A DNA stretch of 64,000 nucleotides from the NCBI GenBank assembly GCA_015039465.1, contig MU130497.1, positions 105,296 to 169,295 on the forward strand, given 5' to 3'. Numbering within the stretch: the first letter of the stretch is position 1; the number at the start of each line of letters is the position of its first letter. Under the pieces are notes generated by a model. That model was not told the DNA's origin. It saw only the letters and a list, made by a program, of their open reading frames with translations, and searched no databases. The stretch is from Phlegmacium glaucopus (lineage: Eukaryota; Basidiomycota; Agaricomycetes; Agaricales; Cortinariaceae). Below, one piece after another: positions 2,667 to 64,000 of this stretch. The position numbers and the translations under genes were made by a program.

Positions 2667-5600
2667 TCAGTCTCTTCCTATTCTCTTTTTTACATTCATG
2701 AGTTCAAATTCCAGATGCTCAGCCTCAATCTGCCTTCCCTGACCAAGGTATATTCTTGCTAGATTTGCCATACTGTTGAGGGTGTCCAGATGTTCTGCAC
2801 CAAGCAGCTTCTTCCTCATGTCCATGACTGGAACCTCTAGCCGCTCTGCCTTGTTCCACCTCCCTTTATTATTGTATGTATTTGCTATATTTTCCATACT
2901 GGTGAGGGTTTCTGGATGTTCTGCACCAAGCAGCTTCTTCCTCATGTCAATAACTGGAACTTGCAGCTGCTCTGCCTCATTCCACCTTCCCTGATCACTG
3001 TATGTGACTGCTAGATTGGCCATACTGTTGAGGGTGTCTGGATGTTCTGCACCAAGCAGCTTCTTTGTCATGTCCACAACTTGAACCTCCAGCTGCTCTG
3101 CCTCATTCCACCTTCCCTGATCATTGTATGTATTTGCTAGATTTGCCATACTGATGAGGGTGTCTATATGTTCTGGACCAAGCAGCTTTTTACTCATGTT
3201 CAGAACTTGAACTTGCAGCTGCTCTGCTTCATGCCACCTTCCTTGATTACTGTATGTGCCCATACTTCTAAGAGTGTCTGGATGTTCTGCACCAAGCAGC
3301 TTCTTCCTCATGTCCATAACTTGAACCTTCAGCTGCTCTGCCTCATTCCACCTTCCCTGATCATTGTATGTGTTTGCTAGATTGGCCATATCAATGAGGG
3401 TGTCTATATATTCTGCACCAAGCAGCTTCTTACTCATGTTCAGAACTTGAACTTGCAGCTGTTCTGCTTTATGCCACCTTCCTTGATTCCTGTATGTGCT
3501 TGCTAGATTAGCCACACTGATGAGGGTCTTTGGGTGTTCTACACCAAGCAGCTTCTTCCTCATGTCCATAACTTGACCCTGCAGCTGCTCTGCATTACAG
3601 TCCCCATTCTCCCACATCACTAGTCCAAAATTGCTCCATTTATCATCATAGTAATGCTTCATAAGTCCTATCTGTCTTCCATGTAACTCATTTGCCTTAA
3701 TATGTGGAAAAATCAATCATCGCAGTGCATAATCTTGACTTTTAAATCTCCATGGAAATGCACAGGACAAGATTAGTGTTTGAAGGTCTGGTTACAAGAC
3801 CGGAAAAAGACCGTAACCAGACTGGACTGGACCGAAAAAGACCATCTGGTCTTTTTATTTTTGAGAATCTAAGACCGGAAAAAGACCGGTCTCAATTAAC
3901 CGGTCTTTTGCAGTTTAGACCAGTCCTAATTTACCCCTTTTCAACGAGCCCAAGATCATAAAAATCCAATAAAAACTGGCTGAGAAATAAATAGATATAT
4001 AAAATAGTCTAAAATATTCGCTAAAATAAGGCATTTTACTAGTATTACTATAGAAAATACAAATCCTAACGGAATTTAACATTCTTGGGCTCGTTCAGAA
4101 GCTATTATTAAACTGAACAACCGTTCTTGATACAGAAATATATATTTGTGAGCAGAAGACCGGTTACAGACTGATTAAGACCAGTTAGGACCAGGACCAG
4201 TCCTAGGACCAAAAAAAACCAATGTAAACCGGTCCTAAGTGGTCCAGTATGGTCTTTTGAGGTCCTAGGACCAAGGTGGACCGGTTACGGTCTCAGTTAA
4301 AGGCCCTGAGGGTCAAAAAACCGGACTGGACCGGACTTTTAAACACTAGACAAGATTATGCTTCCCATCTCACACATTCTTTCCTGCTCATATCTTGACA
4401 TTCTTTCCCGACTCCAGTAGTGCACCAGAGGATGAACAGACAACATCTTAGATGATTGTCCTCTTTTCATCAATGAGAATGAGTGAAGAACACTAATCCC
4501 TTGTCCAAATATGAACTCATCCCAGTGACCATCATTGTCCAAGCAGAGTATGATCCAGTAAAGTGACTGCTTGAGGTAACTCCTCCACTATGTCACTATC
4601 AACATGTTTCATGGCCTTCTCAGCAGCAGATCAGAATATGTCTTTAGAAATGTTACTATGATGATAGAAAGCACATATTCCAAGAATTAGGATTGCAGCC
4701 TGTGCTGCTTGTGCATCTGAAGCAGTGGAATGTCCACCAGCTCTCCTTTTCATTTCTTTGAAAGAAAGATCCCAAGTCCCATACACTGTTCTATCATACT
4801 GTGATGCTCCTGTGAATATAGCATCTGACATAAGAGCCTGGCAATGCACTGAGAATTGCCTCAGATATTGATCAATATCACATTTCCCAACTTCAATATA
4901 AGCACCAGCATGATCAATAGCAAGAGGAATGCACCCAAGCTCAGTCAAAATCTTTTTGGCAGCTTGTCGATGCTCAGGCAATGGATCCAAACAGCCAGCC
5001 TTGAGAAGTAGAGCTATAGCATCTGCCTCCTCCATTTCATGGATCTCAATTTTGTTCTCAAATGATACAATCCTTCCAATGAATTGGTTTCTGCTAGTAA
5101 TCAGAATATTACCTCTGTTACCTGGAGGAATGTACTTGACCACCACCTCTGGAGGGGATCATCAGCATTATCAAATACAATCAACCATTCTTCTTGAAGG
5201 GAAGATATCCACTGGAGAACAGACTCAACTGAGCCATCCACACCAGAATATTTTGCAGCAGGATGGCTAGATATGCCCTTGAGGGAGATCTCCATGCTCT
5301 CCTGAGAGGAGGCATCAACCCAGAAGACATGTGGGAAACTAACAAGAAACAAATTTAATGTTGTGAATGGCAAAGTAAGAATCCTTACTTGTCAAACATT
5401 TCTTCTATGAACTTGAGACAAATCTGAGTCTTTCCAATCCCTCCCAATCCCCAGAGGAGACAAGAGCACCTGGACATCCATCTACTAGTAACACAATGAA
5501 CCAAAATCTCCCCAAGCTTATCAAGTACATCTTTCCATCCAGTAAAGATTGGACTGGAGTTTCTGAGTTACAGGGACCTTGATCTGCCCTTCACCAGTAT

Positions 5601-6239
5601 TAGCAGGGAGAATGTTGACAGTGGTCTATATGCACAATTATTGCTAAATCATACACACAACTTATGGGAAAGACTTACAAAGGTGCTGCCGGTGATGAGA
5701 GTATCCTGGGCATTTGCAAAGAAACCCAATGCAGATTGGCAAGCCTACTGATCATTAGCAAAAGCTGAGAACACATGCTGTAAGCAACTCACCAAGGGAT
5801 TTTGTTCTGATTTTGTGGATCCCAAGTTCAAAGGGAGACTTGGAGTGCACTAGTCTGATTGACGATGATTATTGAATGTTTATGGATGTGATGAGCTAAA
5901 TTGAACACTCATATTAACACCAGTGTTTGGAACTCTTACAGGATTGGTCGCCACAGCGGAAACCAAAGTAGAGACTCAGTCGTCATGGGCAATCTGATGA
6001 ATGATGATAGTTAATTATTTAAGGATGCGATGGGTGAAGTTGAACACTCACAGTAGCACCAGAGACTTGAATAACTTGTGCGCTTGCAGTTGCAGCACTA
6101 GCGAGAATGGATGGCATGGGATCAATGGCACTTGTCATGATTGTCAATGTTGAAGCTGCTGAATTTAGACCATCATTGATGGTCAGAGATGAATATTTTT
6201 GCTTCTTGGGCTTGAAATCTTTCTTAAAAATGTGCTTCA
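2667..6239 (-). pseudogene. NB-ARC/TPR (NLR-type) pseudogene A
   Basis: This is a broken paralogue of the gene at 33,420-37,204. From 5' to 3' it keeps the N-terminal exon starting MKHIFKK (about 6,239), small middle exons (5,750-6,060), the P-loop exon with WGLGGIGKTQICLKF (5,390-5,480), the NB-ARC body (4,560-5,370), and about seven 42-residue TPR units in 2,667-3,600 (consensus GRWNEAEQLQVQVMDMRKKLLGAEHPDTL, given here as its first part GRWNEAEQLQVQV plus KKLLGAEHPDTL). Damage seen: a short deletion before the P-loop (near 5,565), a 1-nt deletion in the DDPPPE stretch (near 5,155), frame loss around 4,540-4,630, one TPR unit shortened (near 3,260), and a 575 bp MITE insertion. NB-ARC/TPR proteins are signal-transducing STAND NTPases thought to act in fungal non-self recognition. 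The last TPR carries an acidic and basic tail ending near KKRIGRD, as in gene B. Confidence 0.88.
3774..4348. mobile_element. hAT-type MITE, 575 bp, with 8-bp target duplication
   Basis: The ends are TAGTGTTT and AAACACTA, and the 8 bp flanks are identical: GACAAGAT at 3,766-3,773 and 4,349-4,356. Pseudogene A reads continuously if the element and one flank are removed, and gene B lacks the insertion. The interior is made of GGTCC/GACCGG words in both orientations and codes for nothing. An 8 bp duplication with short inverted termini is the hAT signature, so a hAT transposase supplied elsewhere presumably moved it. Confidence 0.9.
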
Positions 6240-7790
6240 TATCATTGAACAGTGCTAGTGAGTTATGGTGAGCGATTGAGGTGATGAGAGTTAACAAGAA
6301 AGATGTACTCAATTACATAAGCAGTGATCCTGCGAATGCACACTTTGGCTGTTCATCAATCTTCTATCTGGTGCTTCCCCCCATTCTCCAATACCCCGTA
6401 TTATAATGGCACACCCCTTAGCTGTTGCACAAACCTCGTCAGCTCTGAATTTTTGTGGTCTCTCACCTCTCAGTGGTAAGTAAATTAATAATTTTTTGGG
6501 CCTTGACTGAGTACACTCCATTCACAGCTTGCACATGATGATCAAGAACTCCCCAAAATCATGCGCAACTGGAAGCTTGACCAGTGGATCACACTGACAC
6601 TCATGCAAGACCTCAAAGAATGTCGTGCTGAATCACAATCTTTCTTTCCCCAGGCTTCAGGCTGATCTCAGAGAACTCCAAGATGAACTCACCTGGTGCA
6701 AATTGCAAACAACAACCAAATGCAACTGCCACAACTCATCTTTTTGACACATAACAACAGCTAGAAATGGCCATGTTAGATTATGGAAATTGTGGGAGAG
6801 AGGAATGGAGGTGGTTGAGGCAGAGTTGAAGAGGAATTGTCTGTTGCAAGAAACATGAAACGACTCAAGGACGCTCTCATGGTATGAAATTTCTCGTACC
6901 AATTGTTATTCCATCGTATAAGACTTTTTTGGGTAGATTGCGAGACATGAAACAAGAAACAGATCAAGAACATTGCAAAACAGATATTCAAAATGGAATT
7001 GGCACCATTGCAAGAAACCTGAAGGTCTATTTGGCTTCTCTCTCTCCTGAAGGTGTAATTTGATGCCTTGCATCATCGGAAGCATTTTACAAAACAATCT
7101 GTAATAGCATTATCCCTGTCTTCATTGCTCAATGCCTAACCATCATTGTCAGAACAGACATCAAGGACATCCAAATTCAGGACCAATTTCCAAAGATTGA
7201 AGCTCTCAAACTGTCATTCATATTAAGATTTTAGACTACACTATTGAACCAAGCCTTTCCGATAACACATTATGCAGCCTTTATGGCCACACACACATAT
7301 ATATCTATTTCTAAAAACCCAGACTCAAATTTGGTGTGAAATGTACTTTCGTGGATGATCATGGTCATCTACCACAGATTGTGGTGCGTATGGCAGTGAA
7401 CATGAATGTGGTTCTGGAACAGGTGATTTGGGGTCAATGATACTAAACTGATTTTTCTTCCACCACGAAATGAGGGGTGCATCGAATCCATGGAATTTCT
7501 GAATATTGTTGCCAGTTAGCTAGCTAAAATGGAGAATCTACAAGAAAAAACAACAAGCAGTCATGGTTCCCTCGTGTAGAGAGAAGATGAAGGTATTTTG
7601 ACACAATAAACCCACCGTATCCAGCAGGAGATCATTTTCAAACTTTCAAGATTAATACAATCTGCCAACACCTGGGGTTCTCGGGTCCAGGTCAATGACA
7701 ATGAATATATTGTAAGATGGGTAACAAGTATGAGTTCGAGTGCCACGTATATTGAGAGACAACCGAACGATGGGTTAGGCTGATATCACT
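6240..7790. other. No intact gene; possible coding relics
   Basis: Only short frames are present. A plus-strand stretch at 6,530-6,660 reads as a plausible peptide (LAHDDQELPKIMRNWKLDQW) but is soon interrupted and was not recognised. It could be a decayed gene upstream of NLR copy A. Confidence 0.4.
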
Positions 7791-15191: not shown

Positions 15192-17058
15192 TGATGTAAC
15201 TGCACAGAGGTTGTTGAGAAAAGGTGTATTTTCAAGATTATAAAAATCTCTACTCAAAACAATAACTCAATCAATACTTTATACAATCTTAATAATGCAA
15301 GTTGGGTTTTCTAGAAAGTATAACCTTTCCAAGATTTTGAAATTTACTTCAACTAATACACACAACAACAACAATAATTTGGATCAATTGAAGGATGATC
15401 AAACTTTTTAAGTGGTTTTGCAATTTATGGCTTGCACCAACAATCAGTCAAAGAATTCCCAAGACTTTACTGATTGATTTAAACTTGTGTACACAAAAGT
15501 CCAAGACTTTGTTACAACTTCAACACAATTGCATACACAAGAAGACCCCTTGCTTCTGTTATGACTTCAACACAATTGCATACACAAGAAGACTCAAATG
15601 TTACTCCGGTCCATCTCCCATCGGAGTTGTCTCTGGTAGTCCGTACTCCGTACAGTGCTTCCCCTCACATCCCGAGCTACTCCTCCTACGTTCAACCCTG
15701 AGACTTCTCCATGTCATTCCGGTCCCTCCGTCTATACTCAGCACCCATTACCACTTCTTTGCCACTACCACTATCTGTTTGTCATCACATTCCCACTATC
15801 AGTCAGCACACCAGCCATGGATTATTTACCTCAAGAATGCAGGACCTTTCGGGAGCAGAACGCAGCACATTATATTTATACTTTATATTTTGGTTGCAAT
15901 TCCTTTTATTATTTAAGTACTCAAACTTGTATGTGTTCCCTGAGTTTGAATATCAACATAGTTTCCTCCTCCTAGTCTTCCTCTAAGTTACTGCAATTTC
16001 TGGTTCCACTCTGTTCCGTTCTTACTCTGAAATTAGGACATGAAGGTTTAGGGTAGCACAGCACATACACTGAGGCTATAGTCCTTTCCCGTTCCATGGT
16101 TCCATTCCGGTCAAACTCCGTCCGATACTCCGGAATAGAGTTCTCAAACTTAACACAAACTTCTGTTATGACTTTGACACAACACAACTTTTATAATAAT
16201 TCAACAATTGTTACAACAAGTTCAACACTCTGAGAAACTGATTTATGTTTCAATACCCTGATCTCAAAGACAAGTGTTCTTGCTCAATGTCTAAGACAGT
16301 GAGCTGTACTAGGTTGCAAATGAGGGGGGAAAGAAAGAATCCAATTTTCTGACTATTTACAAACCCTGGGAGGTATTTTATACATTTGAGATATTTAAAA
16401 ATAGATAATGTCCAAAAATAGATATACTGATTCCTGGTACCTTTACTTTGGTTCTGGCACCATGTGCACTCATTGTTCCTGAAAATATAGGGGTTGTCTA
16501 TTTTTAGCCCCATGTTACTAATTTTAGGTAGTTTCCACCCCTCTTGATGGTAACTGTGCCTATTGTGCCTGGAAACAATCTTTATGATTGTTCAGCACTC
16601 CCCCTATCCTTAATCATCATGATTCCCACACAATCACATGGTTCCACTATCTTGGTTATTCTGCTTCCACTGTTGCTAGGGCACCAACCTTCCCCTGAAT
16701 ATTTATTAATAATATTCTGTTGCTCCACAATCACACCCCATGACATTGCTAACCCCAATATATGTTTATTTAACTTTTCCTGTGCCAAGTCTATAAGGAT
16801 ATTCATGGATTTATTGGTTTTAATCCAGACATGCAATTTGTAGTGTAACAAATGATAGTCTATTGACCACACTTATTAACTATATGCACTTAAGTCACAC
16901 AGTAATAGGTCTAATCAGCAGTTGTAGGGTAAACAACTCTGATTCCCTTGTCTATTATCAGTTGTATTAACCAGTTATTGGTGCATTAATTAATATGTAT
17001 GCTGAAATAATAGATAAAAATTGCAAAAACCATGCTTATGCAGATTTAAATCATATCA
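15192..17058. mobile_element. Long LTR-like element (1,867 bp) inside RNase H, itself interrupted
   Basis: The ends are TGATGTAAC and CATATCA (TGAT/ATCA inverted). The 4 bp flanks are GCGT and GCAT, a target duplication with one change; the uninterrupted gene is inferred to read ...GTCGCGGCGTATAGTTCC. It contains no gene. A second insertion lies at 15,599-16,155. Two other copies exist in the window: the 5' part on the minus strand at 17,640-18,474, and a mirrored copy at 62,771-64,000 that lacks the inner insertion. This is probably a solo LTR of a family with unusually long LTRs. Confidence 0.8.
15599..16155 (+). mobile_element. Solo LTR (557 bp) nested in the 1.87-kb element
   Basis: The termini are TGTTA and TAACA, with CAAA flanking on both sides (15,595-15,598 and 16,156-16,159). 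The mirrored copy of the host element reads straight through this site, confirming an insertion. Sister copies are at 23,851-24,423 (plus) and, truncated, at about 17,640-18,064 (minus). The short frames inside it are shared by all copies but show no recognisable domain. Confidence 0.88.
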
Positions 17059-17639: not shown

Positions 17640-19441
17640 AGTAAGAACGGAACAGAGTGGAACCAGAAATTGCACAGTACTTAGAGGAAGAACAAGAGGA
17701 GGAAACTAAGTTGATATTCAAACTCAGGGAAAACATACAAGTTTGAGTACTTAAATAATAAAAGGAATAGCAACCAAAATATAAAGTATAAATATAATGT
17801 GCTGCGTTCTGCTCCCGAAAGGTCCTGCATTCTTGAGGTAAATAATCCATGGCTGGTGTGCTGACTGATAGTGGGAATGTGATGACAAAGAAATAGTGGT
17901 AGTGGCAAAGAAGTGGTAATGGGTGCGGAGTATAGACGGAGGGACCGGAATGACACGGAGAAGTCTCAGGGTTGAACGTAGGAGGAGTAGCTCGGGATGT
18001 GAGGGGAAGCACTGTACGGAGTACGGACTACCAGAGACAACTCCGATGGGAGATGGACCGGAGTAACATTTGAGTCTTCTTGTGTATGCAATTGTATTGA
18101 AGTCATAACAGAAGCAAGGAGTCTTCTAGTGTATGCAAATGTGTTGAAATTGTAACAAAATCTTGGACTTTTGTGTACACAAGTTTAAATCAATCAGTAA
18201 AGTCTTAGGAATTCTTTGACTGATTGTTGGTGCAAGCCATAAATTGCAAAACTACTTAAAAGTTTGATCATCCTTAAATTGATCCAAATTATTGTTGTTG
18301 TTATTGTGTGTACTAGTTGAAGTCAAAGTCAAAATCTTGGAAAGGTTATACTTTCTAGAAAACCCAACTTCCATTATTAAGATTGTATAAAGTATTGATT
18401 GAGTTATTGTTTTGAGTAGAGATTTTTATAATCTTGAAAATACACCTTTTCTCAACAACCTCTGTGCAGTTACATCAACGCCGCGACAGAATCAAGACTA
18501 TTGCAGTCCCGCCTATGGTATACGCCGCGACAGAATCGAGACTATCAGTCCATAAGAGGACCTTTTGCAGGGGTGAAGGGAAGATCGCTATGTGATGGAT
18601 GGCAGAGAGGATGGCGACGAGTTCAAGGAAGAAGATATCTATCTTTTCCTTGGCATTCGATGGAGCCATTGCATACATGAATCCACGACCGGCGTAAACA
18701 AAGGAAAGACCAAGATGCAGGCTAGCATCCAACCACAACTCAAAATCTGCTTCATTATTATTCCATTGGGTAGCATCCACAAAGTGGACTCCAATCGCTT
18801 TTGGAATTATATTGATTAGCCACTCGAAGTTTTGTACAACATCTGCATTGAGAGAGATACCGGCATTCATGAGGGTCTTGCCAGCAATCTTACAGTAGAA
18901 TTCAGAAAGAGCTGGTCAACCAAGGGAAAGGACATGAAACACCCAATTCAAATATCCACCTACTCGGAGCCAGTCCCAGAGGGAAGGCCTTCGTCCCGGA
19001 GTGGCGAGGAAGGCTCGAACAGCTGTGATAATGTCAGCAATCACATTGTTGGTAAGGGTCAGTGTTCCTTGATTGATATTGACATAGAAGCCAATGATCT
19101 TCAATTCAGCACCAAATTCTTGTTTCTTTTCCTTCCATGGACATCCAATCTCATCCCATAACATAAGAAGTTGAGCTTGCTGACGGGGCCGTGAAAACTC
19201 CCTTGTAAAGGACAAAATCAGATGCTCGAGCCCAAGAGAAGAAATCATCCATAAAGTCATGAAGATCCTTGATGCCGAATTTCTTGATTCCAATCCAACA
19301 CATAAGTGCTGAGATGGAACACCAACAGCGAGGAGACGCTCGGTTTCCAAAGACTAAGTGGTGAACAAGGTGCCAAACACCTTCAACATCAATGACTTGC
19401 CTGAGTTGATAGATTGGATGGGCCAGAAGGTTCAGGAACAC
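17640..19441 (-). mobile_element. Inverted duplicate of the DIRS/LTR nest
   Basis: Reverse complement of about 14,270-16,028: DIRS RT/RNase H (19,441 down to 18,477), the 5' part of the 1.87 kb element, and part of the 557 bp LTR. Both arms carry the same premature stop after HVLSLG and the same frameshift, so the copy arose after the gene had decayed and after both insertions. This arm has an extra 40-odd bp at 18,480-18,540 in which a piece of the RNase H sequence (ATTCTGTCGCGGCG) is repeated around a short unrelated insert. The outer edge ends in a 34-nt poly(A) run. The spacer between the arms is about 1.6 kb. Confidence 0.88.
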
Positions 19442-30933: not shown

Positions 30934-33419
30934 GATGATTCGTTTTGAATAGAAAAAGGAATTAAAAGTCTATGGCAGTTTCGAGTCAAGAGTACGGAGG
31001 GTAGAAAAGCCATTTCGCCTTTTGTTTTTAAATACAAGGTGTCCATTGTGCACTTGTGTCGATTGTTCATAAGGCACTCGCCGTTTTGGGACATCAATCG
31101 GAGTTTGAAAATTTCAGTCATTGTTTTCACAAATAGCATTGTCACGTAAGCAAGCAAGGTTATGACGGTAAGAACGCATGTATCATCTCCCAGGGCTTGT
31201 TCGCAAATCGAGGTGCACTTGTTCTTCAACTTGAACACGATCAACCACCGACAACTTTCATCCTTCCTTCCCATAATCTTATATTCTACAGCCGCCTTTT
31301 CGACAATATTGTTCACCTTATACTCAGTTGCCCAGCCTACAGTTCCGATTTCTTCACCGCACTCCCCCGTTTGTTGGTCAACTGGTGTAAATTACTAAAT
31401 ATGCCGCTGCGTCTTCAACATCATAAACATTGGCAGTGCCCCTTTCAACCTTGTTTACGAGAAGAGTATCGCCCGGCGCAAGCGAGCACGCCGAGCCCCC
31501 CCGTCTTCGATGTTGTCATGAATGGCTTCTTGATACAGCGCATCCATCTTGTTCTAGTCGATGAACAATCCAGTGTCGTTATTCAACCACTTTCCCGAGA
31601 TTAAGCTTCTTGGCAGCAGCTTCTGTCGCCACCTTCAGTTCTGCAGGCACTCCCTTGTTCCCTTACCAACGGCATCAGTCATCGAGGAACGTGCTACCAT
31701 ATTAATGGATGTACAAGTCCGTAACGGTCAAGACCGCGTTAACTGCGCCACCTACGGCTACGATTACAAGGGTTTCCCATTTCTCGACGCTATGTTTCCT
31801 AGATATTGAGGCGCCCTCAATGGTCGGTCTAAATCCCCTTCCGCCGATTCACTTACCTTACTCTTAGGTAGTGGTTCTCCAGATAAACCGGTCATTCCAA
31901 GTGTGTCGAGCACCCAAAAGAATCCATGAATCTATTCAAGACACACACTCCAAGTTTCATCTGTTGATCAGACAGCTAGTCGATAATGTATGAAACATCG
32001 ACAACGGTGAAAACTCTAGATCAGTATTTTCTTTTCCTTTTCTCTTTTTTACTGCCAGATGATTCTATCCATTCGCAGTCATTCACCTTCGCTAAAATAT
32101 GTTGGCTTGTGGTCCGGAACCAACCCAACCCTGACGTTGGCAGTGTGGATATCTTGGTCTCAAGTCTATATGTGTAGAAACGAGGTGACGAGATCATGTC
32201 AATTTCGAGGTACATTCTCCAAAGGCGCAACTTCAGCGGTATATCTGGGTCGGTACCATCCCGGGGGCGAACTTCATCGAGTATTATGCTCGGCTTGTGA
32301 GTTGTAGAATAGTACTTTGGACGTGTATCGTAGGCAAGTTCTTTTGTTTCTACATCTATTGCCGGTAGACTCGGTACTTAACTTCCGTAGGTAGTAACCC
32401 TACCTGGAGACACCGCTTATGTGATTTCGTTGATTACCCCTCGCAGCCCCTGGACCGGGATAATGTTACGGTCCTTTAGCAGGGCCCGTGAAAGTTGTGA
32501 AAAAAAAACAAAGGATATCTTATCATAGAAGAAGCCTTCAAGACATACTCATACTGAAATGCAGCCATATTTTGTGCAAAAGCTATCTTCATAACTGTGG
32601 TTTGTGTCTATTTAAATGGTGCATTAGTATCTGACCTTGCTTCACATATGTATATATAGGAGTTGAGTCATGAGTGCTTATTGAAACCTATACAATGTGA
32701 GAGCACTAGTACAGGTTAGGACATTACCTCAGTGTTAGCATGTAGAGTTTTGAACAACTGAGGTATCAAAAATGCAGATGAATTGTATATAAAGGAATGT
32801 GGCATCTTGACAAGTAGATTAATGAGGGAATTACTAATGAGGGAATGGAGTAAATGAGTTAAGGAAAGAAGAGAGGGAAGATTGTTGTTGACATTGCAGG
32901 AAATATGGATGTTGACACCAAGGACCCATTCCCAGAGTGTACAGCAGCAAGTCTTGAAGATTGCAGGGTGCTTTCATTGACAGAACAAATTTATTTTCTT
33001 CCACTGAGCCTGATGGTATGGACACTACTTTGGAAATGTTGTCAATTTGTATTACATTGACATTCTACATACAACCATAGCTCCAATTATCCTAAAAGGT
33101 ATTATGCACTGTGAAATGTGTTCAAACTTATACAGCAGGTGTTCAATCATGGTGGGTATCTGTGATCGGGGCATAAAAATTGGAAAATCAAAAAATTGAA
33201 TTAGGGCTTGTGGTGAGACAGTGCATATATAAGGCTAACTAAAAAGTTTCAAGAAGAATGGAAGGAGCAGCAATGTTTTGAAGATTGCCTGCAAAATGTG
33301 TTGTGATTGTGATGTTGGCAAAGTCACATGAGAAATACAATCATTTTTGTTCCAAAGCATAGTTCAACTGAAAGTAAGGTAGAGGACAAACACTTTCATA
33401 CTTTTATAATTGGGCCACT
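30934..33419. other. Intergenic region with degenerate coding traces
   Basis: The stretch 31,400-31,800, read on the minus strand, gives broken but protein-like peptides (LFID, MDALYQEAIHDNIEDG, DTLLVNKVERGTANVYDVEDAAAYL) in shifting frames. A decayed gene is likely, but I could not assign it. The stretch 32,050-32,310 (plus) is similarly suggestive but unrecognised. From 32,500 to 33,419 nothing was seen except the 3' flank of NLR gene B. Confidence 0.4.
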
Positions 33420-35150
33420 TCAGTCTTTTCCTATTCTCTTCTTTATATTTATGAGTTCAAGCTCCAGTTGCTCTGCCTTATTCCACCTTCCCTGATGACG
33501 ATATGTGACTGCTATATTTTCCATACTCTTGAGGGTGTCTGGATGTTCTGCACCAAACAGCTTCTTCCTCATGGCCATAACTTGAACCTGGAGCTGCTCT
33601 GCCTCATTCCACCTTCCCTGATTATTGTATGTGATTGCTATATTTGACATACTCATGAGGGTATCTGGATGTTCTGCACCAAGCAACTTCTTCATCATGT
33701 CCATAGCTTGAATCTGCAGATGCTCTGCCTCACTCCACCTTCCCTGATTATTGTATGTGATTGCTATATTCGACATACTATTGAGGGTATCTGGATGTTC
33801 TGCACCAAGCAGCTTCTTCCTCATGTCCATAACATGAACCTGCAGTTGTTCTGCCTCATTGCACTGTCCTTGATGACTGTATGTGTTTGCTAGACTTGCA
33901 ATACTGGTGAGGGTCTTTGGATCTTCTGCACCAAGCAACTTCTTCCTCATGTCCATAACATAAACCTGCAGTTGTTCTGCCTCACTCCACCTTCCCTGAT
34001 TACTGTATGTGATTGCTATATTTGACATACTCTTGAGGGTGTCTGGATGTTCTACACCAAACAGCTTCTTCCTCATGTCCATAACTTGAACCTGGAGCTG
34101 CTCTGCCTCATTCCACCTTCCCTGATTATTGTATGTGGTTGCTATATTTGACATACTCATGAGGGTATCTGGATGTTCTGCACCAAGCAGCTTCCTCCTC
34201 ATATCCATAACTTGAACCTGCAGCTGCTCTGCCTCATTCCACCTTCCCTGATTGCTGTATGTGTTTGCCAGATTTGCTATACTCTTGTGGGTGTATGGAT
34301 GTTCTACACCAAGCACATTCTTCATCATGTCTATAACTTCAACTTGCAACTGCTCTGCTTCATTCCACCTTCCCTGATACCTGTATGTGATTGCTATACT
34401 TGCCATACTGTTGAGGGTGTCTGGATGTTCTGTGCCAAGCAGCTTCTTCCTCATGTCCATAACTTGAACCTGCAGTTGCTCTGCCTCATTCCACCTTCCT
34501 TGATACCTGTATGTATTTGCAAGATTTGCTATACTCTTGTGGGTGTATGGATGTTCTATACCAAGCAGCTTCTTCATCATGTCCATAACTTCAACTTGCA
34601 ACTGCTCTGCTTCATTCCACCTTCCCTGATACCTGTATGTGTTTGCCAGATTTGACATACTCTTGAGGGTGTCTGGATGTTCTGCACCAAACAGCTTCTT
34701 CCTCATGTTCATAACAAGAACCTGCAGTTGCTCTGCCTCATTCCACCTTCCCTGATCTTTGTATGTGGTTGATATATATTCCATACTCTTGTGGGTGTGT
34801 GGATGTTCTACACCAAGCAGCTTCTTCATCATGTCCATAACTTCAACTTGCAACTGCTCTGCTTCATTCCACCTTCCCTGATACCTGTATGTGTTTGCTA
34901 GATTTGACATACTTTTGAGGGTGTCTGGATGTTCTGCACCAAGCAGCTTCTTCCTCATGTCCATAACCTGAACCTGCAGCTGCTCTGCCTCATTCCACCT
35001 TCCCTGATGTATGTAGTTGCTACATTTTCCATACTGTTGAGGGTGTCTGGATGTTCTGCACCAAGCAGCTTCTTCCTCATGTCCATAACTTGAACCCTTA
35101 GCTTCTCTGCATTGTCCCAATCTCCATTCTCCATCATTACTAATGCAAAA
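33420..35150 (-). repeat. TPR-coding tandem array, 126-bp unit
   Basis: About 13.5 head-to-tail copies of a 126 bp unit encode a TPR of the kinesin-light-chain type (GRWNEAEQLQVQV...KKLLGAEHPDTL...TY). Units 3, 5 and 7 share MMKK and (H/Y)THKS, while units 2, 4 and 6 share MRKK and PDTL, so part of the array is a 252 bp two-unit repeat. Confidence 0.92.
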
Positions 35151-37204
35151 TTGGACCATTTGTCATCATGGTACTGCTTGATAAGTTCTATCTGCCTCCC
35201 ATGTAGTTCATTTGCCTTGATATGTGGGAACATTAACCGTCGCATTGCATAATCCTGACTTTTGAATCTCCATGAAATTGCACAGGCCAAAATTATGCTT
35301 CCCATCTCACACATTCTTTGCTGCTCATATTTTGACATTCTCTCCCGACTCCAGTAGTGCACCAGAGGATGAACAGACAACATTTTAGATGATTGTCCTC
35401 TTTTCACCAGGGAGAAAGAGAGAAGGACACTAATCCCTTGTCCAAACATGAAGTCATCCCAGTGACCATCACTGTCCAACCCAAGCAGAGTATGATCCAG
35501 TAAAGTGACTGCTTGAGGTAACCTTTCAGCTATGTCACTATCAACAACATGTTTCATACTCTCCTCAGCAGCAGATTGGAATATGTCTTTAGAAATATTA
35601 CTATGATGATAGAAAGCACATATCTGAAGAATAAGGATTGCAGCCTGGGCTGCTTGTGCATCTCCAGCAATGGAATATCCACCAGCTCTCCTTTCTATTT
35701 CTTTGAAAGAAAGATCCCAGGTCCCATACACTGTTTTATCATACTTTGATGCCCCTGTGAATATAGCATCTGACATAAGAGCCTGACGATGTGCTGAGAA
35801 TTGCCTCAGATATTGATCAATATCACATTTTCCAGCCTCAATATAGGCCCCAGCATGATCAATAGCAAGAGGAATGCATCCAAGCTCAGTCACAATCTTT
35901 TTGGCAGCTTGCAGATGCTCAGGCAATGCATCCAAACAGCTAGCCTTGAGAAACAGAGCTATAGCATCTGTCTCCTCCATTTCATGGATCCCAATTTTGT
36001 TCTCAAATGATACAATCCTTCCCATGAATTGGTTTCTGCTAGTAATCAGAATATTACCTCTGTTACCTGAAGGAATGAACTTGGCCACCACCTCTGGAGG
36101 AGGATCATCAGCATTATCAAATACAATCAACCATTCTTCTTGGAGAAAATATATCCACTGGAGGACAGACTCAACTGAGCCATCCACACCAGAATCTTGT
36201 GCAGCAGGAAGGCTAGATATGCCCCTGAGAGACAATTCTATGCTCTCCTGAGAGGAGGCATCAACCCAGAATATATGTGAAAAACTATCAAGAAATGAAT
36301 CCAGTGTTGTGAATGGCAAAAGTAAGAACCCTTACTTTTCAGACATTTCTTCTATGAACTTGAGGCAAATTTGGGTCTTCCCAATCCCTCCCAGTCCCCA
36401 GAGGAGACACAAGTGCCTAGACCTCAGTGTACTAGTATCACAATGAACAAAAATCTTCCCAAGTTTATCGAGTACATCTTTCCGTCCAGTAAAGATTGGG
36501 CTGGAGTTGGGTCTTTGAGTTATAGGGATTTTCATCTTCCCTTCACCAGGACTAGCAGGGAGAATATTGACATTGTTCTATATGCACAATTATTGCTAAA
36601 TCATACACACAACTTATGAGAAAGACTTACGAAGGTGCCGCCAGTGATGAGGGTATTCTGCGCATTGGCAAAGAAACCCAAGGCGGGTTGTTGAACCTGC
36701 TGATTGTTATTCAAAGCGGAGAACACATGGTATAAGCAACTCACCGATGGACTTTGTTCGGATTTTGTGGATCCCAAGTTCAAAGCGGAGATTTGGAGTT
36801 CATGGGTAATCTGTCGATGATGAATGAATACTCGTGGATGTGATGCGCCAAATTGAACACTCACATTAACGCCAGTGTCTGGAACACTTACAGGATTGGT
36901 CGCCAGAGCAGAAACTGGAGGAGAGACTTGGAGGTCATGGGCAGTCTGATGGGTGACGGTGGTTAAATATCTAAGGATGCGATAGGTGAAGTTAAACGCT
37001 CACGGCAGCGCCAGCGACCTGAATAACTTGTGCGCTTGCAGTCGCAGCACTAGTGAGAATGGATGGCATGGCATCAACGGCGCTTGTTTTGATTGTCGAT
37101 GTCGAAGTTGCTGGTTCACAGCTTGAACCTAGAGCATCGTTGATAGTCAGAGATGGATATGCTTGTTTCTTGGACTTGTATTTTTTCTTAAGAATGTGCT
37201 TCAT
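33420..37204 (-). pseudogene. NB-ARC/TPR (NLR-type) gene B, nearly intact with one frameshift
   Basis: Exons: 37,204-37,004 (start MKHILKKKYKSKKQ), 36,945-36,892, 36,810-36,745, 36,699-36,631, 36,577-36,336 (P-loop WGLGGIGKTQICLKF) and 36,284-33,420. Introns have GT-AG ends. The NB-ARC body shows LIVFDNADDP (Walker B), GNILITSRN (sensor) and GCIPLAIDHAGAY (GxPLA). The C-terminus is 13 full 42-residue TPR units plus a half unit (33,420-35,150). A gap of about 4 nt near 35,008, inside the first TPR boundary, shifts the frame. Without it the exon sum is a multiple of three and would give about 1,165 residues. The defect could be a real null allele or a sequencing error in a repeat. The N-terminal 130 residues match no effector domain I know. 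Such STAND proteins are thought to oligomerise on ligand binding by the repeats and trigger defence or incompatibility. Confidence 0.85.
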
Positions 37205-39391
37205 ATCATTGAACAGTGAGTTATAGTGAGCGGTGAGGGTGGTGATAAGGGTCGATAAGAAAACGCACTCGATTACATAAGCAGTGATCCCAGCGAGTAG
37301 TCGTTCCCACCTATATTGGTCTGCTTTTGATCGCGTCAGGTTTACCGCTTCACACTTCTTCACATCATGTCAGCGCGTCCAAACATCCGCTCACGCATCC
37401 AAACGCTGGAACAATTGGACATTGCTGACTCTAACTGGATTTAGGCACCTGTAACCCCCCCGGCCTCGTATGCCATGAGAGCGATTTGCATTGATCCCAT
37501 CGAAGAGTTTCATTACAGCTTGTACAGAATAATCATATGGGTCGTATGGGAGGCGATTTTTGGTGAGATTTTGACATAAAGCAATTCCAGAAAGTAAAAT
37601 AAATGAAACGCCTTAGTCTTGGAGTTGTCTAGTATGGACATTGGAATAACGATGATTCCTGAGATCTTCCTAATTGACGCGACAAGGCGAAGTTGTGTTT
37701 TCTATGGGATCGATGTGCTGCTCCACACGAGATGACAACTACTACTCCACCTCTCTTTAAAGAGAAATTGAGTGATGTGGTATGGAATTGACGCGTGATG
37801 GCGATTACAGATGAAGACATGGATTGACAGCCTTTTTTTCGCTCCTTTGCTCTTTCAATTACTATCAGTCCAGGGTATGCATTCTAAAAAATCCCTATCC
37901 TGTTCTTTATATCGTACACCCACTCATAAATTCATCAATCAACACCACCACCCCTCAATCAATCATCATAATGTACTCCTTCAAACCTACGTAGCGCCTT
38001 CACCGGCTCAGGATTCAAGTTCATCACAGTCGCATCGCCTCAGTCTTGGAACCTCAATCCGAAGAACTTAACCTCAAAAGTCCTTTATTTACCAATTCGC
38101 AGTCTCAACAATATCGCTTCAACTCTTCACCTCTACAAACAAGTCGAACTACATATGATGGCATTGACCTAGAATTTTCAAACCACATAATGTGCATATA
38201 ATTGGACCCTGTCATGGTGTCATCCTCTCGTATTTTTTTGATCATCTTCTCGTCCAGTCGTACTCTATATGGAAGACTGAGCGCCCGTTGTTGTACTCAT
38301 GCGCCCGACATAGTGTCGCAACTGCCGTTTCTTCCTTGGTTTTGACAATCCCTTTAATCCTATCCAAGGTTTATATAAATTAGTACATTATCTTCAGCTG
38401 GGTTATTTTTGGCCTTAATTGCCATACAATGGGCTGGTGATGGTTTGGAATCTTTTATTGTAGAAAACTTCTTTCCGTATGAAGTTGGTATGAAGTCGAT
38501 CGACCTCGACCGACTTATCATTCAAGTTGATCAATTTGTCATCAACGTTATCGTAAGCTGTCATCGGGAGACACTTACTGTAATGGCAACTTGAAGCACA
38601 AGAATCCTGAAGATCGTAGCAGCATCAAGTGATATTTAGTAGGAGTCAAAGTAGGGCGATTGTTGCATGATTATTGCATGATTAAGTTGCCGATTATTGA
38701 GCACTTAAATAATCCTCTCAGAAGTCGTTTGACCGTCACGATTTTTCATTGTAATTTTTCAAGTTATTTTTGACTTTTCCTGTCTTCTCTCAACCTGTCG
38801 AATGTCAAAATTTTTAAAACTATGACGCTTGAATAATCGTACTCAAGAATCACGGCAAGAATCGTCAATTCGCCTCCAGAAGTGATTCGACAAAAATCGC
38901 CTACTTTGACTGGTACATAATGCCACATTGTGATCCAGAGTCTTCGGACTCAGGGTTATTCAACTTATTGAACAAAGCTCCTGCATATGAATAATGTAGT
39001 CTCATAAGATGTCAGGCAAATGTGGTAGATTTCATTCACACTTGGATCGATTGATGCACTCGATCCTAAAAGGTGCACTGATTTTCTAGGTTTGATATTG
39101 ACGTACTGCGGTAGCTGCGAGAAAGCATCCACAGTTCTAGAAAAACATAGAACGATAGTGGATATAAAGAGGTGGAGATTGCCGCACGGCGTAGAGTGGA
39201 CACGCAATCGATGAGTCCGAAACGTGAGAATATTACCTAATCACCACTTGAAGCGCAAACCTGTACCCATTTGTAACACTTGCTCACCAACCACCACGAC
39301 CTCTGTTTGAATTTTCGTTTTCTAAATCTTTGATTAGAAAGAAACCTCTATAAACCTTTTCGTGACTCATACCAGCCTTCTAACAGTAACC
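37205..39391. other. Intergenic
   Basis: No supported gene. The region contains the promoters of NLR gene B and of the bZIP gene. A CTATAAAC box lies at 39,348-39,355, about 40 bp upstream of the bZIP start codon. Confidence 0.55.
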
Positions 39392-49644: not shown

Positions 49645-52600
49645 TTAACGGCGCGCAGGCTGGGTACGAGATACATAAAGATCAAAGAGGTATCTGAGAA
49701 GGTAGAAGTCATGGTGACGAAGGTAAGGGTTTAAAAAAAATGTTTCAGCATCATCGAGAACATTGCCAGATGACCAAGCCTCAGGTATCTGACGGCCAAA
49801 GTTAGGGGAAAGATGACAGCTACGTGCTATCAAAGTGACAGGGATAATTGTTGCACGCTGTCGGCGGTTGTGAGAAGAGAGCGAAGTTTCGAACATGAGG
49901 GTGTCTGGGTCTGGTTGAGTACGGAAAGGTTTATACCAGTGGATGTATGCGAGAGGGTGGGGATAATGATTGAATTCACTTGGTAAACTGAAAATCAATC
50001 GAACTTGAGCAACACGCAATCCTAAAGCATAAGAGGATAGGATAAGATGAATTATGAGAGGACTTGACTGAGTGCTCACCGCTTAAAGGGCCGTCCCTTT
50101 TCATATTGCTGGGGCTATCTTGAACGAGGACGGTGCTAAAGCGAGCGGGGGCAGATTCTTTGATGCCTTGGGAGGTTACTGTGCGAGGAGTTGTTTTGAT
50201 GGCTTGAACAGTATCTATGGTGGGCATCGATGAGACCTCGGGAATTGGTGGAAGAACAAATTGAACCTGTTTATAAACGTCAAATGTAGAGGAAATAGTT
50301 GGGTGGTTAGTTCCAATTGGTTGATTTGTGTCGATGAAAGTGGAAAGATGGTGTAGGAAATCGATTGCGCCAAAGTCAGCGATGATGGATGCCACAGAGA
50401 CTCCACCCAACACTGCCTTCTTTGCAACTGTGTACCTTTCAAGTTCCTTCACTGTTGGTATGTCGTCCACACCCGAATCCTCCTCCTCCTCCTCCTCCTC
50501 CTCCTCCTCCTCCTCCTCTCCTGCTGTATCTCCCTGATCACCGACCCCTTCACCTCCAAGAACCTGCGCAGTATAGCCCGGAAGAGCCCACTGAAGGTAT
50601 ACGCAAAACCTTTTGATGCCTTCTTGACGCCGGAGCCAGATTGTCATCTGCTTAATGTATTGCTTTTTATTTCCAGCCCGATACCCCATCTTTGCAAGAT
50701 CGATGTGAAGTCGCTCCGATCCCTCGGTATTGAACCCATCAGCCGTGCCATGTGAGCAAATTGCGCCGATATAATGTTTAATATTATGGAGCTTACTGAT
50801 GTTGAAATGTTTTCGGATTCCTAGGTCCTCGAAAATATGTTTGTTGTTATGAAATGTGAGCCACGCCGCGTCAAGCTGGGATAGGGATTCATCACAGTGT
50901 GTCTCAAAATGGGCATAGTAAATAAAATCCAAGACCCCTCGTACGGCTCGCACGACAGCTGGATCTGTTGCTCCAGCAAGAATACCAAGAAATACCTTCT
51001 CCATATTCTTGTGTTCTGTTCCTGTCCACTGAGTCGTCAGTGAAATTCCCTTTTTGAAATGGCGAAGGCTAGGGTGAGGGGACATTGCTCGGAACCGACG
51101 GTCGACCTCTTTTTCACCACCATCCACTGAGGTTGTGGCCCAACTAACGATATGGTCCTTGAATACCCCCTTGTGAAGCTGATGAAGGAGGTCAGGGGTT
51201 ATTGTGGAGAAGATGTCGCAGTGAGGGAGATCTTTCCAGAAAGGGTTAACCGCACGAAGGCTGTGCGCTTGGAACTCAGGTGGGTTTAAACCTCGAGCTT
51301 TTTCTCCTAGAATGCGAACCGTTGTGTCATGATCCCGTAAAACAGAAAAAAGACGAGCCCCACGTTCCTTTGGATTTACCAGACAGCGAGGACAGGCACT
51401 TTCCTTACAACAAACAACCAGACACTGTTCAGGGTAGTCTGCGATATATGCTGCCAAGATCGGGTAGATGGTGCGTATAAATCCATCAGCACAGTTCATG
51501 TCGACGCCATTCTTCCCAGCATCAACCAAAGGTTTCAAGAGGGTGCGCATGCACTCATGAAAAAGTTGATACCCTTCGATTGACCGTGACTTCTTAGAAA
51601 AGCATTCAAGCTTGCAAACCGGAATGTATCCGATGAGAACCATCGCGCGTGATGTTGGCTGGCGTCGAGTTTCCTTTCTGATGTTGCCAACGCTGAGGTA
51701 AACAGGCCATGCTTGCTTATCGCCACTAAACTGTGAGAGGCTCGTCTTGTCGGATGAGATGATAATTGGGCATACGGTTACACCATCTGGTAATTTTTCC
51801 TAGCAGACGACATGCAGTGAGTATCTATTTTCCCACTGATGATTTGTGATAATTCGTTGCTACCTGAAGGTTCCACCACCAATTCCCAGTCCACATCTCA
51901 CTGTACTCGCGGTTTGTTCCATCATCATTCTTGTAAACCTTCTGAGGTGCGTAACATTGCTTTCCTTTGAATGCTGGATTTCCCATAAGTTCTTTGATAC
52001 ATTCAACAGGATCACGGTGCCACAGCTCTACATCCTCCGTTCTGAGTTGCCCATCCTTATCGCGTTGATCTCCTTTGATCCTGAATGTCGAACACGTCCA
52101 TTGTGGTCCATCGGGGAGAGAGTCAATTCTTTGGAGAAGCGATCTTGCGTTGTGAAAGGCAGGATCGGCCCCATGTTTAATCTGATATGGAGATATGGTG
52201 AATTATTATTTTCCTCTATGTTCCAAAAAAGTGACTCACCTTGTTCAATTTTAGGAACGAGTCTATCTTTGTTTGACTCACGCCAGAAGTCATAAGCCAC
52301 CTGGCAAGTTCCCACTCATCTTCGCTTTCAAATGGTGCCCATGGCGCCTCCCCTGCCTCCCTTTGCGCCTTCAAATGTTGTTCAAACTCTGTCGGCCCTG
52401 TTTTCTGCGCAGAAAGAGGCAACCCGGCGGGTCTTGGGAAATCCTCGATAAAGCGTGATTCCCAGCCTGAGGCCTTGTCATCTTCGTCTTCCACATCCTC
52501 AACTGTCACACTTGACTGCCTTGACTCGGATTGCCTTGGTTCATCCTCCATTGGCCCTGGAGTACCGATTGGGGGGTCAATTTCAATGTATGGCGGGAGG

Positions 52601-59643: not shown

Positions 59644-60175
59644 TGGATTTCAGTACAAATAAAATAGTACTGAAATACAGTGATGAGTTTTATTCGGGGT
59701 GCAAATCAATGAATGCGTCACGCTGGTCACAAACATATACAAACAATTTCTTAAAAAGGGCTTAGGAATACACTGATACAGAAAATACAAAATGCCCTTT
59801 GTCGAAATTTGGGATGTTGGTTTATAGAATATGACAGAGGGAGATTAGTTGAGAAGCTAGTCAATGTCTCTGGGTAGGCGGATACCTAGTATATTGGTAT
59901 AAACTGATGAGGATTCACCTCAGTCGGTTTAGTATTTATATACATACAAATGTGGCTATGTATCTATGAGTGATTTCTGCTATTTGATAGGTATTCAGTA
60001 CTAATGATGATGTGATTATGATGCGATATGACATGATTAGAACAAAATATTTCAACACCCTTGCTGTGTTATAGGGGTCTGATAAATCAGAATGGCATCT
60101 TCCACAATTTGTCAAACAACATGCAAGTCCATCAGAAAAAAATAACCTTGGCCTGGCTGGCTCTGGCTGCCCTGG
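59644..60175. other. Intergenic; contains the right-hand orientation switch
   Basis: No gene. Somewhere here the text changes from normal to mirrored orientation. CTGGCTGGCTCTGGCTGCCCTGG-like simple sequence at 60,150-60,175 abuts the first recognisable mirrored NLR base (60,176). Confidence 0.6.
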
Positions 60176-61945
60176 TCGTTATAAAGATCCCTCTATAAGG
60201 CTAGACGACGACTCCTCCGGTATTTGAACTGTGTACAACAACTATCACTGTATCGACTTTTCAATGGAGTCCGTCAGTGAAATGATCTAATATGAGACGA
60301 ACCGAACCTGTTACTACCAGTGACCCTACTCAAGTATAAACCTGTTCCCTAATCACAGGAAGAGAGTAAGAGGAACTACTTTTCTCCTGTTAGTAGATTT
60401 TACAACAGACAAGTAGGAGACCACGTGATGACCTCAGCCCTCTCTTACAGTTTTCTACTCGTCGTTTCTTACACACTCTACCCTTCGTATTAAAACCGGA
60501 CACGTTAAGGTACCTCTAAACTTTCAGTCCTAATACGTGACGCTGCTAATTAAAAAGGTGTATAATTCCGTTTACTCAATGTATCTTCCGTCTATCCCAT
60601 ATAATTCGGTATGATACTACTATTTACCTCGTTCAAAAGTAATCATTACTCCCTTGTACCTCTGACCCTGTTACGTCTCGTCGACCTCCAAGTTCAATAT
60701 CTGTACTCCTTCTTGAACGAACTACGTCTTGTAGGTCTGTGGGAGTGATCATACCGTTTAGATCGTTCGTGTATGCCCCGAGTCCCTTCCACCTTACTCC
60801 GTCTCGTCGACGTCCAAGTTCAGTACCTGTACTCCTTCTTCGACGAACCATGTCTTGTATGTTTGTGGGAGTTGTCATCCCTTTTGGATCGTTCGTGTAT
60901 GTCCCGAGTCCCTTCCACCTTACTCCGTCTCGTCGACGTCCAAGTTCAATACCTGTACTCCTTCTTCGACGAACCACGTCTTGTAGGTCTGTGGGAGTTG
61001 TCATCCCCTTTGGACGGTTCGTGTATGACCCGAGTCCCTTCTACCTTACTCCGTCTCGTTGATGTCCAAGTTCAATACCTGTACTCTTTCTTCGACGAAC
61101 CACGTCTTGTAGGTTTATGGGAGTTGTCGTACCGTTTAGATCGTTCGTGTATGTCCCGCGTCCCTTCCAACTGACTCCGTCTCGTTGACCTGTAAGTTCA
61201 ATACCTGTACTCTTTTTCCGACGAACCACGTCTTGTAGGTCTGTGGGAACGGTCGTATCGGTTAGATAGGTGATGTATGACCCGAGTCTCCTCCACCTTA
61301 CTCCGTCTCGTCGACCTGTAACTTCAAGACCTGTAGTCCTTCTTCGACGAACCACGTCTTGTAGGTTTGTGGGAGTTATCGTACCGTCTAGATCGTTGGT
61401 GTATGGTAGTAGTCCCTTCCACCTTACTCCGTCTCGTCGACGTGTAAGTTCAATATCTGTACTCCTTCTTCGACGAACCACGTCTTGTAGGTCTGTGGGA
61501 GTGGTTATACCGTTTAGATCGTTCGTATATGTCTCTAGTCCCTTCCACCTTACTCCGTCTCGTTGACGTGTAAGTTCAAGACCTGTACTCCTTCTTCGAC
61601 GAACCACGTCTTGTAGGTGTATGGTAGTTGTCGTACCGTTTACATCGTTCGTGTATATTAACAGTCCCTTCCACCTTACTCCGTCTCGTCGACCTCCAAG
61701 TTCACTATCTGTACTCCTTCTATGATGAACCACGTCGTGTAGGTCTGTGGGAGTGGTCATACCTTTTAGATCGTTCGTATATGTCCCTAGTCTCTTCCAC
61801 CTTACTCCGTCTCGTCGACGTTTAAGTTCAAGACCTGTACTCGTTCTTCGACGAACCACGTCTTGTAGGTCTATGGGAGTTGTCATACCGTTTAGATCGT
61901 TCGTGTATGTCCAGAGTCCCTTCCACCGTACTCCGTCTCTTTAAT
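60176..61945. pseudogene. NB-ARC/TPR gene copy C, present only in mirrored form
   Basis: If the plus-strand text is complemented but not reversed, reading left to right gives NLR protein: NISREIFRSAAEEA, then VVDSDIAEKLPQAVTLLDYT, GQGISVLLSFSLMKRGQSSK, MLSVHPLVHYWSRERMSK, and then about ten TPR units of 126 bp (60,650-61,945). It corresponds to 35,590 down to about 33,420 of gene B. The apparent minus- and plus-strand frames with repeated RRRSTGIEL or LVDVQVQYLYS words are artefacts of the mirrored text. The N-terminal half, including the P-loop, is absent at 60,176. Confidence 0.88.
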
Positions 61946-62770
61946 CTCGAACTTCAACGTTGATGTTCCTTCTCTCTGACTTCACTAGATTAGTAGGTTC
62001 CTATTATCACAAACATAAGATGGAAGAACTGAAAGTTAACAACCTTGTTTTTAAGTTTATTGTATAAAAATCGTTTCTTGATAATAGATATCTTTTACAC
62101 GTCACAAATTGTTGAAACCTGGAGGGTAAAAGTTGAGTGTTTATCGAGTTTCATGTTGTTTGTAAGTCCATCGTTTCGATACTGGATGTCATCAATGTTA
62201 CTCCCGTACCTCGTAAAAAGAACAAGACTTTTACCAGTTTTTTGGGAACAACTTGACAACTGTAAAGTGAATACCAATCAAACGTTTCTTTGGGGTTAAA
62301 ATTTTGTAGTAATGGTTCAAGGTTGATCCCGACGCGTGGTCGACATAATACCCATACCGACAATTTAATGTTGGCGTTTAAAGAGGGAGGTTGGGACCTG
62401 TCATGTCGGTCCATCCTTTTGCCCATGATACCAGCAGTCATGTGATGTATGTTGTTGATGACGCTCATTCTGTAAAAAAATTTTTTTAATCCTGAATACT
62501 CATTACATCATATAAATTAACATACTTTTTATGTAAAACATCACGTCACCTGCACCTTACCTTCTATAAGTAGTAATAAACTGTTTTTATCTAACCGGTC
62601 GTGCCTCGAACTTTATTTCTTCCGTTTCGTTCCGTTGATTTTTACACTAAAAGTTAACTAAATAGTGTGTTTATTAATTAAATTTTACTGTTCCCGGACT
62701 TACGTTACGTTAAGTACGGTTTATGGGTGTTTTTGAATTATTACAGTGTGTTTGTACGGGTGTATGGGCA
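61946..62770. other. Mirrored sequence without assigned content
   Basis: This lies between the mirrored NLR and the mirrored LTR-like element. Read backwards it is AT-rich 3' flank of the NLR copy (ending TCAGTCTC...TTCC) and unassigned DNA. No recognised gene. Confidence 0.5.
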
Positions 62771-64000
62771 ACTATACTAAATTTAGACGTATTCGTACCA
62801 AAAACGTTAAAAATAGATAATAAAGTCGTATTTATAATTAATTACGTGGTTATTGACCAATTATGTTGACTATTATTTGTTCCCTTAGTTTCAACAGATG
62901 GGATGTTGACGACTAATCTGGATAATGACACACTGAATTTACGTATATCAATTATTCACACCAGTTATCTGATAGTAAACAATGTGATGTTTAACGTACA
63001 GACCTAATTTTGGTTATTTAGGTACTTATAGGAATATCTGAACCGTGTCCTTTTCAATTTATTTGTTATAACCCAATCTTTTACAGTACCCCACACTAAC
63101 ACCTCGTTGTCTTATAATAATTATTTATAAGTCCCCTTCCAACCACGGGATCGTTGTCACCTTCGTCTTATTGGTTCTATCACCTTGGTACACTAACACC
63201 CCCTTAGTACTACTAATTCCTATCCCCCTCACGACTTGTTAGTATTTCTAACAAAGGTCCGTGTTATTCGTGTCAATGGTGGTTCTCCCCACCTTTGATG
63301 GATTTTAATCGTTGTACCCCGATTTTTATCTTGTTGGGGATACAAAGGTCCTTGTTACTCACGTGTACCACGGTCTTGGTTTCATTCCCATGGTCCTTGG
63401 TCATATAGATAAAAACCTGTAATAGATAAAAATTTATAGAGTTTACATATTTTATGGAGGGTCCCAAACATTTGTCAGTCTTTTAACCTAAGAAAGAAAG
63501 GGGGTGAGTTAACGTTGGATCATGTCGAGTGACAGAATCTGTAACTCGTTCTTGTGAACAGTAACTCATCACCTGAACTTTTATTTAGTCAAAGAGTCTC
63601 AACAAACTGAACAACGTTATTAACAACTTAACAACATTTTCAACAACAACACAATTTCAGTATCGTCTTCGTTCTCCCGAAGAACACATACGTTAACACA
63701 ATTTCAGTATTGTCTTCAAACTCAGAAGAACACATACGTTAACACAACTTCAACATTGTTTCAGAACCTGAAAACACATGTGTTTAACATTTAGTTAGTC
63801 TCTTCAGAATCCTTAAGAAGACGACTAACAACCACGTTCGGTATTTAACGTTTTGGTGAATGTTCAAACTAGTAGGAAATTAACTAGGTTTAATAACAAC
63901 AACAACACACACAATCAACTTCACTTAAGTTTTATAACCTTTCCAATATGAAAGATCTTTTGGGTTGAACGTAATAATTTTAACATATTTCATAACTAAC
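62771..64000. mobile_element. Mirrored copy of the 1.87-kb LTR-like element
   Basis: Read backwards from 64,000 to 62,771, the text follows 15,268-17,058 nearly base for base, e.g. GCAAGTTGGGTTTTCTAGAA, CCTGGGAGGTATTTTATACA, CACAATCACATGGTTCCACT and the terminus ...CATATCA. The nested 557 bp LTR plus its 4 bp duplicate is absent; allowing for that, the two stretches have the same length (1,230 bp). The copy continues past the window's edge. Confidence 0.92.

Follow-up and report, generated by a model that had tools for sequence, protein, structure and literature searches.

The last 3.8 kb of the DNA analysed here, a stretch of 64,000 nucleotides from contig MU130497.1 of Phlegmacium glaucopus (hereafter the window), raise the question of how a sequence can come to be written backwards without also being complemented. 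An earlier note had described positions 60,176-64,000 as a mirror image of normal DNA. It is asked here whether this relation holds, how far it extends, and whether it belongs to the organism or to its assembly.

A block of text reversed without complement

The plain reversal of 60,176-64,000 was compared with the window by blastn. The earlier note would have dropped its claim had the reversed text not aligned, but it did align: on the plus strand, the reversed block matched 33,850-35,602 with 85.2% identity over 1,763 bp, 16,160-17,058 with 95.7% identity over 904 bp, 15,268-15,591 with 93.2% identity and 4,351-4,657 with 88.2% identity. The second and third of these matches lie on either side of an insert (15,591-16,160) in a dispersed repeat, which is written normally on the plus strand at 15,268-17,058 and mirrored at 62,771-64,000, as had been proposed; further mirrored copies of this repeat are present elsewhere in the genome. 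With 60,176-64,000 as given, or with its reverse complement, blastn gave zero matches to the remaining window. The complement-only form of the block matched an inverted repeat copy at 18,076-18,401, which is the same mirror relation viewed from the other strand. An ordinary inversion or inverted repeat likewise gives a further copy that reads in the opposite order, but there the letters are also complemented; as the reverse complement had no match, both were ruled out.

Similarly, the proposal that the reversal of 60,176-61,945 is a copy of an NLR gene was borne out by the match to 33,850-35,602. The mirrored fragment of this TPR-rich NLR-type gene occupies 60,176-61,978, where complementing the letters without reversing them gives 601 stop-free codons; frame 1 of the same interval, read as given, contains 20 stops. 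Its normally written paralogue is at 33,850-35,602, with the gene on the minus strand.

When window coordinates are extended into the contig (positions above 64,000 or below 1), the full mirrored block is 60,176-64,618 (4,443 bp). Its left edge is 60,175|60,176, it continues 618 bp beyond the window end, and its right edge, 64,618, directly adjoins an N gap of 9,631 bp (64,619-74,249). The window itself contains no N, and the assembly letters are identical to those of the window over its last 10 kb. The 3.8-kb segment first described is thus mirrored, but it is only the in-window part of the block, and the description included neither the gaps nor a second block at 1-713 (see below). Beyond the gap, the normally written interval 74,250-76,932 matched the reversed main block with 98.2% identity over 2,683 bp and no indel; 31 of the 47 substitutions were transitions, and this looks like a real close copy and not sequencing noise. 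Chance was ruled out by the alignments to 33,850-35,602, 16,160-17,058 and 74,250-76,932 and by the 601 open codons. In conclusion, 60,176-64,618 is confirmed as DNA text reversed without complement.

The reversal was also visible in composition, independently of homology. A tetranucleotide score, for which other DNA had served as training set, was applied to 1-kb intervals, excluding those with more than 20% N or overlapping an edge; it called as mirrored 14 of 14 intervals of the main block versus 6 of 381 elsewhere. The strongest of these six outside outliers begins at window position 1, and the second mirrored block was then found there. The strand-asymmetric dinucleotides of the main block were swapped (CpG with GpC, TpA with ApT): as written, it contains 209 CpG and 17 GpC, 389 TA and 296 AT, and the ratio CG/(CG+GC) was 0.92, versus 0.05-0.55 in 170 overlapping normal intervals of 4,443 bp. 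Once reversed, the NLR and repeat DNA of 60,176-64,618 is strongly CpG-depleted (17 CpG versus 209 GpC), and some normal intervals are equally low.

Junctions, gaps and other mirrored blocks

The last 46 bp of normal text before the main block (60,130-60,175, plus strand) open a foldback repeat of about 386 bp, the rest of which lies in the reversed block. With the block reversed in place, the repeat crossed 60,175|60,176 ungapped, over 387 bp at 96.9% identity to a copy in locus L026; in the same test with a copy in locus L027, the reversed form aligned over 391 bp at 95.9%. The as-given, complement and reverse complement forms aligned over 46-51 bp only. This continuity indicates that the whole stretch of 4,443 letters from the old contig end up to the gap was turned round without being moved. 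The two copies used (L026, 764-1149; L027, 900-1285) are about 386 bp long and near-palindromic along their entire length.

An N gap of 9,354 bp ends one base short of window position 1, and the second mirrored block, 1-713, lies directly to its right. The reversal of 220-713 was identical to contig C121, 13,407-13,900 (100%), and the normal text at 714-800 was identical to C121, 13,089-13,175 (100%); these matches on either side of 713|714 are those predicted by reversal in place. Across the junction itself the reversed form aligned over 514 bp with 95.3% identity and 12 gap positions. In this second block, a portion of a dispersed repeat is accompanied by a microsatellite of the TAG/TTG type.

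Twelve blocks were submitted to a junction test, in which the flank was joined to the block text in alternative forms and alignments crossing the junction were sought in the retrieved DNA. Reversal in place aligned across the junction in 11 of the 12 blocks, at boundaries that were the best within a range and are therefore fitted positions. Complement in place and reverse complement in place succeeded at none of the 12 junctions, and both were ruled out. The only junction without success, L048, had no relative for comparison, and the success at L046 was weak (about 72%). With the as-given form, alignments were obtained for 9 of 11 blocks, each at a boundary at least 43 bp away from the best fit of the reversal, so that they stay on a single side of the edge. 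When the boundaries were fixed, one junction of 10, that of L039, was spanned by the as-given form, which was run at the first position of this boundary; after a shift of the boundary by 104 bp, the reversal matched over 401 bp with 99.5% identity. At L047, the reversed block was joined ungapped to its left flank over 400 bp (89.8%), and the right junction was poor (75.8%, 46 gap positions).

The genome was then searched with the main block as given. Among 40 candidate places scored there were 47 matches, one being the window itself and the other 46 lying on 28 contigs; several of the 46 are pieces of one place. In all 14 loci retrieved from these 46 matches, the matched part was mirrored by composition. 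The second block of the window and the mirrored copies on other contigs rule out a one-off accident.

In all, 19 mirrored blocks were examined: the two in the window, four represented by paired loci (L032/L047, L033/L048, L034/L049 and L035/L050), and those of L036-L040, L045, L046, L176-L180 and L057, the last recognised by composition only. Their sizes were 0.7-4.4 kb where measured. An N run adjoined 14 of the 19, a count from which no share of affected gaps follows, as the blocks came from searching mirrored text and not from sampling gaps. In most of these 14, mirrored homology or composition was followed to within about 40 bp of the run; in L033/L048 the mirrored signal was traced only to the last ~250 bp before the gap. 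Four blocks (L032/L047, L037, L057 and L177) have normal text on both sides, as expected of closed gaps, and for the remaining one (L176) the piece analysed ends inside the block. Normal gap edges were observed at 74,250, L052 and L053. The end of L055 (contig C148, before a gap at about 209,940), which is outside the set of 19, looks mirrored by composition only, and both edges of this gap may thus be mirrored.

Origin of the mirrored text

These results show a systematic mirror-text error in this genome, one that in the blocks examined lies mostly at assembly gaps and is not a feature of the organism. We consider it very probable that we are dealing with an assembly artefact in which gap patches were written reversed, most likely during PacBio patching with PBJelly, and not with DNA biology. 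The scaffolds would have contained N gaps, and a gap-patching step, most likely PBJelly used with PacBio reads, would have extended contig ends into some of these gaps and closed others. In many patches the correct letters would have been written simply in reverse order, the form that a minus-strand patch takes when it is complemented without being reversed. Each block would then have one sharp edge where the old contig stopped, and would run from there to the residual gap or, in the case of a closed gap, to the following contig. Patching would be the step at fault, PBJelly or a wrapper the program, and the omitted reversal the strand operation that presumably failed.

One protein encoded in the window is 100% identical, over 98% of its length, to BYT27DRAFT_7243600 of Phlegmacium glaucopus. 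Strain AT 2004 276 is listed under Phlegmacium glaucopus, a name which we take to be a synonym of Cortinarius glaucopus. The accessible text of one genome study names Cortinarius glaucopus and reports assembly with ALLPATHS-LG from Illumina data; hybrid assemblies were patched with PacBio by PBJelly, a general statement in which this strain is not specified as hybrid (PMC7550596). According to excerpts of two other papers, PBJelly may either close a gap or extend into it (PMC7757076, PMC9635638), which fits the two types of block, those between normal flanks and those at an N run. Gap openings in repeat copies amounted to 7.4 per kb between mirrored and normal copies, 5.8 between normal copies and 5.2 between mirrored copies; as indels in mirrored copies are only slightly above normal, the patches do not consist of raw long reads. 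No report of a reversed-patch fault of this kind, in PBJelly or otherwise, was found in the open-licence PMC literature, and the fault is not described in the available portions of PMC6191289, PMC7757076 and PMC9635638. In the PBJelly overfilling and hybrid gap-patch errors presented in the last of these, as far as its available portion goes, long-read patches at gaps likewise give false edge sequence; there the error consists of surplus or misjoined normal letters, whereas the patches in the present genome have letters that are reversed but not complemented.

The same letters would result if the text had been reversed at some other step, either because one or more contigs were reversed in scaffolding or through a file-conversion slip unrelated to patching. 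The earlier note had favoured this kind of data error (a contig reversed or complemented, but not both). An error in the text is indeed what was found; however, instead of a single reversed contig there are many blocks, mostly at N gaps. On numerous contigs, they begin within the contig and extend up to a gap; each is reversed where it stands, and continuity is regained at the contig side, whereas a whole reversed contig should have gaps at both ends. We therefore regard a scaffolding or conversion slip as unlikely. It is far less probable still that the mirrored text arose only in the genome copy analysed here and is absent from the deposited assembly, since P0082, a predicted protein of this species that was deposited in nr, is itself a chimera, part mirrored and part normal (see below).

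Biological mirror copying, by a 3'-to-5' 'reversing' polymerisation without complementing, has been claimed for RNA, and the accessible part of that work describes the same relation between texts: 'swinger' or 'reversing' RNAs likewise show homology only after plain reversal (PMC4942731). Those are claimed transcripts, whereas the present stretches belong to an assembly, in which they replace normal text beside gaps. The edges of the blocks coincide with assembly gaps, the tested edges are continuous once the text is reversed in place, and at these loci the mirrored text takes the place of normal text with nothing added, all of which argues against a copying process. Controls pointed the same way: mirrored IS1 ('near' mode) had no match in 20,395 Escherichia coli records, against 9,561 records for normal IS1, and a mirrored 16S motif had no exact match in the genome_contigs set, in which the normal motif was present in at least 117 stretches. 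The probability that we assign to biological reversal is vanishingly small, and reversed gap patches remain by far the preferred explanation. These observations also carry a warning that reversed homology should not be taken for biology.

Genes and predicted proteins affected

As written, the mirrored TPR text contains a spurious ORF of 281 aa (61,041-61,886, minus strand). A protein search with this ORF (E <= 0.001) gave a single match among 8,000 candidates scored, the protein P0082 (BYT27DRAFT_7265694, in nr, from the same species), which is 70% identical to the as-given ORF over about 200 residues. Beyond this mirror-like part, P0082 carries a true TPR unit (TPR_10, residues 203-232). When P0082 was placed on the genome, residues 1-201 fell mostly in known mirrored places and residues about 201-235 mostly in normal TPR genes, among the matches listed; a few of these extended over both segments, and none of those listed covered the protein in full. 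P0082 is a mirror/normal chimera, its first ~200 residues being derived from mirrored TPR text and its end being a normal TPR unit. Such a chimera shows that the mirror text already existed at the time of gene calling, and it makes P0082 a false orphan, so that nr holds at least one predicted protein of this kind.

In this genome, mirror text hides real copies of NLR-type genes and repeats beside gaps. It is not alignable by the usual forward and reverse-complement searches, and ordinary checks can be expected to miss it. The homology-free test based on CpG/GpC and tetranucleotides flags mirrored patches and could be used on other gap-patched assemblies. Whether the fault extends beyond this genome is a more speculative matter: other hybrid assemblies that went through the same step might also carry mirror patches at gap edges, with phantom genes passing as orphan proteins, a possibility that we hold to be real yet rather less than even.

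NLR-type genes with 126-bp TPR units are repeated along the contig. In the window they are present at 2569-7224 and 33343-37290, and outside it at 74794-79683, at 92713-98144 and at -11160 to -16938; the copy at 33-36 kb encodes DUF7779 together with TPR_10/12. A tRNA scan found none. An ORF at 49979-51643 of the window encodes a Plavaka transposase domain (PF18759, 3.7e-62).
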